Origin: a bacterium
GTDB taxonomy: Bacteria; Blakebacterota; Blakebacteria; Blakebacterales; Blakebacteraceae
NCBI GenBank assembly: GCA_025774615.1
Contig: JALGVQ010000045.1
Coordinates: forward strand, 1 to 15,694
Length of the DNA: 15,694 bases
Reading direction: 5' to 3'
Shown here: positions 1,039 to 3,610 of the stretch, in pieces
Layout: every line of letters starts with the position of its first letter
Numbering within the stretch: position 1 is the stretch's first letter
Translations under genes and position numbers: made by a program
The notes under the pieces: generated by a model
Told to the model about the DNA's origin: nothing
Seen by the model: the letters and a program-made list of their open reading frames with translations, nothing else
Databases searched by the model: none

Positions 1039-1067
1039 GTATCGTTTCAATAGTAATGAAACGATAC
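1039..1067. promoter_or_regulatory. Perfect 11-bp inverted repeat, operator-like
   Basis: The arms GTATCGTTTCA (1039-1049) and TGAAACGATAC (1057-1067) are exact reverse complements around a 7-nt AT-rich spacer. The right arm ends 2 bp before the -35 hexamer of the promoter at 1069-1097. No T-run follows, so it is not a rho-independent terminator. The core ATCGTTTCA recurs downstream of the promoter. The position suggests a binding site for a dimeric regulator, plausibly the winged-helix Fic protein encoded immediately downstream (inference). Confidence 0.7.
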
Positions 1068-1068
1068 C

Positions 1069-1097
1069 TTGACTAAATGGTAACTACCTCGTATATA
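1069..1097 (+). promoter_or_regulatory. Sigma70-type promoter for the Fic-family gene
   Basis: The -35 hexamer is TTGACT (1069-1074) and the -10 hexamer is TATATA (1092-1097), with a spacer of exactly 17 bp. Both hexamers are near consensus. Transcription would begin at about 1104, giving a leader of about 30 nt before the ATG at 1135. Operator-like repeats lie directly upstream and inside the predicted leader, which suggests tight control. Confidence 0.75.
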
Positions 1098-1105
1098 AGC
1101 AGATA

Positions 1106-1136
1106 ATCGTATCATCGAAAGACTGGATCGTTTCAT
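1106..1136 (+). promoter_or_regulatory. Direct repeat of the operator half-site across the leader and start codon
   Basis: ATCGTATCAT (1106-1115) and ATCGTTTCAT (1127-1136) are two copies, one mismatch apart, of the half-site found in the inverted repeat at 1039-1067. Their spacing is 21 bp, about two helical turns, so they would face the same side of the DNA. The second copy runs into the ATG start codon at 1135. A protein bound here would cover the predicted transcription start and the ribosome entry region. Confidence 0.6.
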
Positions 1137-2421
1137 GCCGCTCACTGACCACGATATCCTCGACTACCTTGCCGACCATCCTGCCGCAGGCCGGGAGGAT
1201 ATCCGACACCATGTAGCACCGGATGTAAGCGGACCGACAGTCTGGCGTGCCCTCAAGAGGCTTGTTGATGAAGGCCGGCTTGAAGTGACAGGCAAGGCCC
1301 GTGCTACCGGCTACAGCCTGGCAGGCGCCGCAGTTGTCCGCGCCCATCTGCAGATACCCTATAACCGTCGAAAGCCGACGAATTACAACAGGGAATTCCT
1401 GGACCACTATGTACCTGACAAGAGCTTCTACCTGGGTGAGGCAGATCGACAGCACCTGCATGAAGCCGGCCGGCCCATAACACCGTCCCTTCCAGCGGGA
1501 ACCTATGCGCGTCGCATCCTGGAAAGACTCCTGGTGGACCTGTCCTGGGCATCATCACACCTGGAAGGGAATACTTACAGTATCCTTGAAACTGAACGGC
1601 TGATCCGGTTCGGGGAAGAGGCAGCTGGCAAGGACCGCAAGGAAGCGGTGATGATCCTCAATCACAAGGAAGCGATTCAGTACGCTGTCGATAACGTCAC
1701 CGATATAACGATCAGCCGGCCGGACATATTCAACCTTCACGCTTTACTTGCCGACGGTCTTCTTACCGATCCCGCCATGGCGGGACGGCTGCGTCGCATG
1801 CCTGTCGGCATTACGCATTCAAGCTACAGGCCACTCGGCGAGCAGTTTGCGATCGAGGAGGAATTCGACATCCTGATTCAGAAAGCAGCAGCAATCTCGG
1901 ACCCGTTCGAGCAGTCATTCTTTCTTCTTGTCCAGGTCCCGTATCTGCAGGCTTTCGATGATATCAACAAGCGGACTTCACGTATCGCTTCCAACATCCC
2001 GCTCCTGAAGGCCGACCTCGCCCCCATGTCGTTTCTCACGATGGACGAAGGCGACTATATCGACGGCCTTATCGGTATCTACGAGTTGAACAACGTTTCA
2101 CTGCTTCGCAATGTGTACATCGACGCCTATTTGACCTCAGCTGAGAATTACAGGGTGCTGCGCGCCGAGGTTGACACACCCGAGAAGGCCGCTCTGGTGT
2201 ACCGTGATTTCGTTCGCAAAGCCGTGCGCCGCAGTGTGCTGGAGTGGAAAGCGTTCCGTCCTGAGTACATCATGATCATGGCCGTTGAAGCCGGTATCCC
2301 TGAAACGGATCGTGAGCAGGTCGTCTACTATATCAGGGATGAGTTCTATGGCCTGCACGAAGGCAACATCATCCGTTACCGGTTGAACCCTGAAGACCTT
2401 GCCACCCTCAAACGGGAGTGA
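1135..2421 (+). CDS. Winged-helix and Fic-domain protein with a non-canonical Fic motif
   Basis: This is a 428-residue cytosolic protein. Residues about 3-62 resemble a winged helix-turn-helix DNA-binding domain (LTDHDILDYLA..., SGPTVWRALKRLVDEGRLEVTG). The middle is a Fic fold. The self-inhibitory helix motif [ST]xxxE[GN] is present as SSHLEG (residues 140-145). The Fic active-site loop reads QAFDDINKRTSR (272-283). Compared with HxFx[DE]GN[GK]RxxR, the catalytic His is Gln272 and the first Gly is Ile277, while Phe274, Asp276, Asn278, Lys279, Arg280 and Arg283 are kept. Classical Fic enzymes transfer AMP to a target hydroxyl; loss of the His makes that chemistry doubtful here. I recall related proteins with Q-x-F-x-D-x-N-K-R-x-S-R, so this is probably a conserved subfamily rather than decay. 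ATG 1135 is the only in-frame start after the TAA at 1096-1098, and no good ribosome-binding site precedes it. The gene has its own promoter and operator-like repeats, which suggests autoregulation. Confidence 0.85.
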   Translation: MPLTDHDILDYLADHPAAGREDIRHHVAPDVSGPTVWRALKRLVDEGRLEVTGKARATGYSLAGAAVVRAHLQIPYNRRKPTNYNREFLDHYVPDKSFYLGEADRQHLHEAGRPITPSLPAGTYARRILERLLVDLSWASSHLEGNTYSILETERLIRFGEEAAGKDRKEAVMILNHKEAIQYAVDNVTDITISRPDIFNLHALLADGLLTDPAMAGRLRRMPVGITHSSYRPLGEQFAIEEEFDILIQKAAAISDPFEQSFFLLVQVPYLQAFDDINKRTSRIASNIPLLKADLAPMSFLTMDEGDYIDGLIGIYELNNVSLLRNVYIDAYLTSAENYRVLRAEVDTPEKAALVYRDFVRKAVRRSVLEWKAFRPEYIMIMAVEAGIPETDREQVVYYIRDEFYGLHEGNIIRYRLNPEDLATLKRE

Positions 2422-2521
2422 TTGCCGGATCTGAAATACAGACAGGCTGATTACAGTCACACTATAAAAGGGAGAGTGATGTTATTGGTCGGATGGATTA
2501 ATTCGGGGGGACAACGCTGCT
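2422..2521. other. Convergent intergenic gap without an obvious terminator
   Basis: One hundred bases separate the 3' ends of the Fic-family gene (plus strand) and the dehydrogenase gene (minus strand). I see only very short complementary segments (for example CTGATTACAG at about 2447-2456) and no GC-rich stem followed by a T-run on either strand. There is no open reading frame of note. Confidence 0.5.
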
Positions 2522-3610
2522 TCAGGGCTTGAGCACGACCTTGCCGAATTGCGAGCGATCTGCCAGATAGCGATGGGCATCAGCAGCTTCGCTCAAAGGG
2601 AATACCCGGTCCACCACTGGCCTCAGTTCACCACTTCTAACACCCTCGACGACCTTGAGCAGCTCACCCCGACTGCCCATGTAGGAACCGATCAGGTGCA
2701 CCTGTTTGACGAAGAGGTAGCGGAGGTCGAAGGTGACCTTGCCGCCGGTAGTCGCCCCGCACGTCACCAACCGCCCGCCCCGCGCCAGGATCTTGAGATT
2801 TTGTTCCCATACCTCTGAGCCCACGTGCTCGAAGATCACGTCAACGCCTCTGCCGCCGGTGAGTTCATTGATGCTCTCGGCGAAACCGGGGTCTGAATAG
2901 TCGAACGCCGCGTCAGCTCCCAGTTCGAGACCTTTCTTTCGCTTCTCAGGAGTGGAGGCGGTGGTGTAGACGGTTGCCCCGGCCTGTTTCGCGATCTGGA
3001 TCGCCGCAGTGCCGACCCCGGATCCGGCTGCGTGCACGAGCACCGATTCGCCCGGCTGAAGATGTGCCTGGGTGTGGAGCATCCGCCACGCGGTCATGAA
3101 GGTGAGAGGGATCGCCGCCCACAGAATCGGATCGTCGTCGGGCCCGAGAGGGATACAGACATCTGCCGGCATCGCCACTTCCTCGGCATATCCTCCCTGA
3201 CGCTGGTAGCCGAAGATCTGGTAACCCTCGACACAGAGGCTGTCGAGGTCCTTCAGGCAGTATTCGCATTTCCGGCAGGAGGTCATGGGTGCGAGCACTA
3301 CGCGCTGACCCACATGGATCGGATCACCGTAGAGACCCCTGAGGGCAGGCTCACCCCCCGGGCCGGTCAGGCCTGTTCCAGCGGCGCCCGATCCGACTTC
3401 GAGGATGGTGCCGGCCATCTCACTGCCGAGCAGGTGAGGCAGGGGGATAGGCGGGCCGGGCAGACCCTGGCGCACCCAGATGTCGAGGTGGTTGAGCGCG
3501 ACTGCTTCCACGCGGATCCGGACTTCACTGGCACCGGGAACAGGAACAGGCAGGTCGACCACTTCGAGAACGTCAGGTCCCCCGTGATCGTTGAAGACGA
3601 CAGCCTGCAT
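2522..3610 (-). CDS. Zinc-binding MDR-superfamily alcohol dehydrogenase / quinone oxidoreductase-like
   Basis: This 362-residue medium-chain dehydrogenase/reductase starts with the usual MQAVVFNDHGGPDVLEVVD. The GroES-like domain (about 1-150) has the structural-zinc motif CxxCxxCx7C (Cys112, 115, 118, 126). The catalytic-zinc ligands are absent: the Cys position is Asn40 (ALNHLD) and the GHE motif is GSE (62-64). The Rossmann domain has AAGSGVGTAAIQIAK (Gly196, 198, 200). The next strand leads to TTASTPEKRKK with no acidic residue after the strand, which favours NADP(H). A Gly/Pro-rich insertion (about 75-97) sits just before VGQRVVL and lengthens the usual loop. The probable activity is zinc-independent reduction of an enone, quinone or aldehyde; the substrate is unknown. 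The gene starts at ATG 3610 without a strong ribosome-binding site, 50 bp after nuoN on the same strand and with no terminator between, so read-through from the nuo operon is likely. Confidence 0.85.
   Translation of the reverse strand: MQAVVFNDHGGPDVLEVVDLPVPVPGASEVRIRVEAVALNHLDIWVRQGLPGPPIPLPHLLGSEMAGTILEVGSGAAGTGLTGPGGEPALRGLYGDPIHVGQRVVLAPMTSCRKCEYCLKDLDSLCVEGYQIFGYQRQGGYAEEVAMPADVCIPLGPDDDPILWAAIPLTFMTAWRMLHTQAHLQPGESVLVHAAGSGVGTAAIQIAKQAGATVYTTASTPEKRKKGLELGADAAFDYSDPGFAESINELTGGRGVDVIFEHVGSEVWEQNLKILARGGRLVTCGATTGGKVTFDLRYLFVKQVHLIGSYMGSRGELLKVVEGVRSGELRPVVDRVFPLSEAADAHRYLADRSQFGKVVLKP

Follow-up and report, generated by a model that had tools for sequence, protein, structure and literature searches.

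A conserved half-site array at the promoter of a histidine-less winged-helix Fic gene is a putative autoregulatory operator

The window, by which we mean the whole stretch of 15,694 nucleotides that was analysed, encodes on its plus strand a 428-residue protein with a predicted N-terminal winged helix followed by a Fic domain (1135-2421). The gene stands alone between a TauE-like permease, accompanied by a DUF1634-like partner (a match that falls short of the Pfam cut-off), and an oxidoreductase that neighbors a nuo operon, the oxidoreductase and nuo genes being named from their sequence. A reverse ORF at 1084-1461 overlaps the Fic gene and has no Pfam match, and no cognate antitoxin gene was found beside the Fic gene in the window; with no partner gene, a Fic/Doc toxin-antitoxin pair was ruled out. 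The GC3 of the Fic gene is 64.8%, compared with 71-79% for its neighbors, which is in keeping with transfer. The intergenic operator region before it (953-1134) is 39.6% GC, against about 59-62% in the surrounding DNA.

This region holds a perfect 11-bp inverted repeat, composed of GTATCGTTTCA (1039-1049), the spacer ATAGTAA (1050-1056) and TGAAACGATAC (1057-1067); including most of the spacer lengthens the arms to 14 nt, at 93%. The repeat can be described as a putative palindromic operator (1039-1067) of two head-to-head half-sites with a 7-bp spacer, whose TCGTTTCA cores lie at 1042-1049 on the plus strand and 1057-1064 on the minus strand. The promoter follows on the plus strand, with a -35 box, TTGACT (1069-1074), 1 bp after the palindrome and a -10 box, TATATA (1092-1097), 17 bp from the -35. 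Two more plus-strand half-sites form direct repeats 21 bp apart: ATCGTATCAT (1106-1115), which has one mismatch and lies at the predicted transcription start, and ATCGTTTCAT (1127-1136), which is exact and overlaps the start codon, taking in the AT of the ATG at 1135. The TCGTTTCA core is common to all four copies; copy 1 reads ATCGTTTCAA, and copies 1 and 3 are each one mismatch from ATCGTTTCAT. Direct reading therefore bears out the original prediction of a four-site array before a Fic-family gene, including the positions, match quality and spacing of the two direct repeats. Two details need correction, as the four sites are not identical copies of ATCGTTTCAT and the perfect inverted repeat lies 1 bp, not 2 bp, before the -35.

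The promoter is weak by strict consensus; a strict-consensus scan of the region found nothing, and TATATA lacks the final T. The TTGA of the -35 and an AT-rich -10 at the same spacing are nonetheless conserved in orthologues. A site abutting the -35 occupies a position used by many activators. The palindrome, ending 1 bp before the -35, and the departure of both boxes from consensus thus lend something to the main rival of the reading we favor, namely that the Fic protein is an activator or dual regulator whose palindrome recruits RNA polymerase at low level and whose direct repeats repress at high level. We consider this unlikely, given that sites 3 and 4 lie on the transcription start and start codon, that site 4 is the best kept of all (61/61 genes, see below), and that CccR, a Fic protein compared below, is a repressor.

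The half-sites are concentrated at this promoter. All four matches in the window with at most one mismatch fall within these 98 bp, where 0.77 would be expected window-wide, and the 241 such matches in the 3.3 Mb genome correspond to 0.007 expected per 98 bp. The 29-bp palindrome occurs a single time in the genome assembly (~82% complete), even with up to 3 mismatches allowed, and so no trans target carrying it was found elsewhere in its own genome. A role at the RNA level was rejected, since the palindrome lies upstream of the -35 and the remaining two sites share one orientation as direct repeats, leaving no transcribed hairpin.

The Fic part of the protein matches Pfam PF02661 at 29.8 bits (cut-off 24), which places it in the Fic/DOC profile family. 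Its fold is FICD-like (structure match Z about 22), and its best sequence and structure matches are class II Fic proteins of the FICD/SoFic type (PDB 6i7g, 3eqx). The class II pattern [ST]xxxE[GN] is found N-terminal to the Fic motif in the inhibitory-helix motif SSHLEGN (residues 140-146; 1552-1572, plus strand), of which S140, S141, E144, G145 and N146 are invariant in the aligned proteins. The Fic motif itself, YLQAFDDINKRTSR (residues 270-283; 1942-1983, plus strand), is degenerate: Gln272 replaces the catalytic His of HPFx[DE]GN[GK]R, while the Asp, Asn and Arg are kept. An alignment with human FICD spans both the inhibitory and active-site motifs and sets YLQAFDDINKRTSR against YIHPFIDGNGRTSR. 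Residues Q272, D276, N278, K279, R280 and R283 do not vary among 58 aligned proteins, nor in a second set that extends to identities as low as 37%. Given this exchange of histidine for glutamine in an otherwise preserved pocket, the Fic part is unlikely to be an ordinary AMPylator. With the pocket retained and the histidine base lost, the protein may be either a sensor or scaffold, or a catalyst of something unusual. The earlier label of a Fic module must be qualified accordingly, as the catalytic histidine is absent.

The N-terminal 64 residues (1135-1326, plus strand) are predicted with fair confidence to form a winged helix, as originally proposed. The AlphaFold model has helices at residues 5-14, 20-27 and 33-45 and strands at 49-52 and 59-62, and the domain resembles FeoC, MecI and Z-alpha (Z about 10 over 60 residues); Pfam HTH_24 scores E 0.0034 against the N-terminus, below its cut-off. 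The putative recognition helix is GPTVWRALKRLVD (residues 33-45; 1231-1269, plus strand), assigned from the model and from the way half-site type follows this helix among relatives. Pfam at E 0.1 matched no WYL domain in the protein, which sets it apart from WYL-type defence regulators such as BrxR and CapW. The C-terminal segment after the Fic domain (residues 350-428 in the window; also in L020 and others) has no Pfam match and ends in a conserved GLHEGN(F/V)xR(Y/F), which echoes the inhibitory EGN motif.

The suggested check on orthologues, whether they share a conserved upstream palindrome, was run on 58 genes at 66-80% identity chosen by protein sequence alone, to which two plasmid copies were added and the window counted as well. 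The orthologues are labelled as Proteobacteria classes, Desulfobacteria, Rhodothermales and Gemmatimonadetes, although many are MAGs and some labels may be wrong. Sites were defined as having at most one mismatch to TCRTTKCA, with a background of 0.0012 per position per strand. The palindrome was found in the same position, with the left arm in place in 60/60 genes and the right arm in 58/60, and the four-site array was nearly always kept, its distance from the start codon unchanged. Site 3 is within one mismatch in 52 of 61 genes and site 4 in every one, so that 50/61 genes have all four sites and 60 have three or more; the sole exception, L054, has too little upstream DNA. Outside the upstream region, sites are ~120 times rarer per kb. 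Information content, computed with redundancy weights (effective N 28), is 1.67 bits per base in the arms, 0.52 in the palindrome spacer and 0.13 in the upstream flank; it is 0.82 in site 3, 0.23 in the gap between sites 3 and 4, and 1.65 in site 4. With arms and site 4 high and spacers and flank low, the words have been kept while the DNA between them changed. Chance repeats are ruled out, as the half-sites are conserved across several phyla in genes whose proteins are 66-80% identical, despite divergence of the spacers.

About three quarters of the genes (46/60) have a second palindrome ~114 bp further upstream, and in many of these the distal direct repeats are in register. The resulting two-module layout places a palindrome at -208/-193 and direct repeats at -142/-121, then -94/-79 and -28/-7. 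In L015-L083, the stretch between about -208 and -121 relative to the start codon holds this second palindrome, often with direct repeats too. The full operator would therefore consist of two modules in tandem and offer as many as eight half-sites. The window holds the proximal module only; 86 bp separate its palindrome from the end of the preceding gene, and the second palindrome 114 bp upstream is absent from the window. Extra matches in 23 orthologue genomes are mostly the second module ~114 bp upstream or orphan promoter copies, and the few unexplained single one-mismatch matches look like chance.

Beyond the orthologues, we examined 45 relatives from plasmids, viral contigs and genomes, using 90 windows of the same loci as controls. 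De novo arrays at z>3 were found in 64% of these members and in 1% of the controls (p 1e-17); the 36% with no significant array are partly due to automatic start-codon picking. The half-sites vary among members, with GCG-core words, ATCAGCTC, GGCTGATA, TGTCCTAA and TATTCTTG all represented, and 15 plasmid relatives have arrays built of other half-sites. A paralogue in the same genome, at 44-45% identity, has a different helix; its half-sites are TTGCGCAT, and the 21-bp direct repeat recurs there. In distant relatives at about 37-45% identity, this paralogue included, the arrays are made of other half-sites that follow the recognition helix. Members with RRxxQ helices, a class picked after looking at the data, have GCG-core half-sites in 16/17 cases, compared with 4/10 for other helices (p 0.004). 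Among the orthologues, the six genes with nearly all-TCGTTGCA half-sites coincide exactly with the set encoding [DN][DN]P at residues 31-33, where the recognition helix begins. This pairing fits self-binding but is consistent rather than decisive, because all six may belong to a single clade, and shared descent alone could make helix and site vary together. Two Fic genes with the canonical HPF motif and readable upstream DNA, taken as a negative control, have no array, and are too few to confine arrays to the Gln group.

Host factors commonly regulate horizontally acquired genes, and the array could on that ground belong to another host regulator, with the Fic protein's winged helix binding elsewhere. 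This seems quite improbable when the same array moves with the gene between phyla while the flanks differ, the half-site tracks the recognition helix that the gene itself encodes, and the palindrome is unique in the genome.

Spacing in the wider family also bears on how the sites would be occupied. Same-strand sites lie ~10, 20, 30 or 40 bp apart, with 78 of 114 pairs (which are not independent of one another) within 1 bp, and protomers would therefore line up along one side of the double helix. Direct repeats in such a register, at multiples of about 10 bp, make cooperative binding a reasonable inference. For the same reason of phasing, an unbroken oligomer covering the promoter is a simpler picture than the DNA loop of the original prediction, for which we found no specific support.

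Taken together, we favor a model in which the half-sites are the operator of the downstream wHTH-Fic protein, read by its winged helix so that its protomers shut the gene off; we put the probability of this at roughly 78%. Of its parts, binding of the Fic protein to its own array is very likely, as judged from sequence comparison, and repression of its own gene is likely, in view of the site positions and the analogy with CccR. The N-terminal winged helix would read each TCGTTTCA half-site, and several protomers joined through the Fic part would assemble over the palindrome beside the -35 and over the direct repeats. They would thereby cover the -35 flank, the transcription start and the start codon, turning the gene off in negative autoregulation. 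With less confidence, the histidine-less Fic domain may act as a sensor of a ligand or partner that releases the array, and, at the same lower confidence, the protein may in some hosts also control a neighboring defence operon. The proposal of self-regulation through the protein's own winged helix thus gains from the orthologues and from the match of half-site to helix in relatives; its looping component finds no such support.

Fic proteins with HTH domains are already known, as is one case of autorepression. CccR of Yersinia pseudotuberculosis is a dimeric Fic-HTH autorepressor acting through an inverted repeat near the -35 and -10 (PMC9755527). Like the window protein, it joins Fic and HTH in one chain and has a class II inhibitory motif (PMC9755527), and both genes have an inverted repeat at their own promoter, although sequence and spacing differ. 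In CccR the HTH is C-terminal, and the protein has a catalytic His192, modifies FtsZ by AMPylation and is toxic to E. coli (PMC9755527), whereas the window protein has an N-terminal wHTH and Gln in place of His. The CccR operator consists of two 10-bp boxes 26 bp apart (PMC9755527), unlike the four (often eight) half-sites, 7-bp palindrome spacer and 21-bp direct repeats of the window family. CbFic2 of Coxiella burnetii is likewise a class II Fic protein with a DNA-binding winged helix, and AMPylates and deAMPylates histone H3; its HTH is C-terminal and its HPF motif canonical, unlike the window protein, and the passages of that report consulted here describe no operator of its own (PMC10628234). 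The FICD/SoFic-type proteins share the Fic fold and inhibitory Glu motif but have the catalytic His; FICD has no HTH, and the extra domain of SoFic lies at the other end from that of the window protein. BrxR and RptR are defence-island repressors whose genes are associated with unrelated defence systems; they lack a Fic domain, and repression by RptR works through a run of direct repeats (PMC9122601, PMC9122589, PMC12255303). The window group thus differs from what is known in its domain order, its lost histidine and its operator. In the open-licence literature, we found no description of this family or of a Fic repressor with a His-to-Gln change, and no mention of Fic together with Shango.

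The family is found in 40 of 369 sampled species genomes of one gammaproteobacterial class (about one in nine), in 4/190 in the class of an alphaproteobacterium (G111), and in 12/296 in the phylum of a genome labelled Rhodothermales (G101). Relatives occur on plasmids and beside recombinases. In two places, L099 (2226-2345) and L100 (~2420-2530, minus strand), we observed an orphan copy of the operator, complete with promoter and start codon but lacking the Fic gene, with the next reading frame stopping within about 6-12 codons. These orphan copies with their cut-off frames, the plasmid and recombinase neighbors, and the tandem 114-bp modules of most orthologues would suit a role at the DNA level outside transcription, for instance as a mobile element's iteron, partition site or recombination site that the Fic protein binds. 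We regard such a role as very improbable, as the array and a conserved promoter are interwoven, the array stops right at the start codon, and the window copy looks chromosomal, beside nuo genes.

In Rhodobacterales, the Fic gene lies directly before SngA-SngB of the Shango defence system (e.g., L082 5404-9232). In L082 and other Rhodobacterales loci, the Fic-SngA gap also contains TCGTTGCAATGA, almost without variation, some 50 bp ahead of SngA. As a sign of a site in common with the Shango operon this is only suggestive, because that whole gap is nearly identical in those genomes. Other Fic relatives lie directly before pairs of SIR2-domain and short pAgo genes (L085 5437-8522, L093 5492-8520). 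In each case, the link between the Fic family and a defence operon is one of gene order.

We tentatively suggest, as a broader idea that we hold with some doubt, that this is a widespread, mobile, histidine-less Fic family of non-AMPylating, ligand-sensing autorepressors that form helically phased oligomers on their own evolving half-sites and that serve in some hosts as plug-in regulators of unrelated phage-defence operons (Shango, SIR2/short pAgo). Such a role would give a testable function to many 'Fic family proteins' without the catalytic histidine, and the family offers a natural series of paired changes in recognition helix and DNA word that can be read from sequence. Should the pocket of the Fic domain respond to a nucleotide, or to a change brought about by phage, it would be a new kind of switch before defence genes. 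A related version with a QPFxDGNKR motif and an N-terminal helix-turn-helix-like segment is encoded at two loci in the phylum of G101 (L160 and L161), one of which has an array (z 4.5) and the other none.
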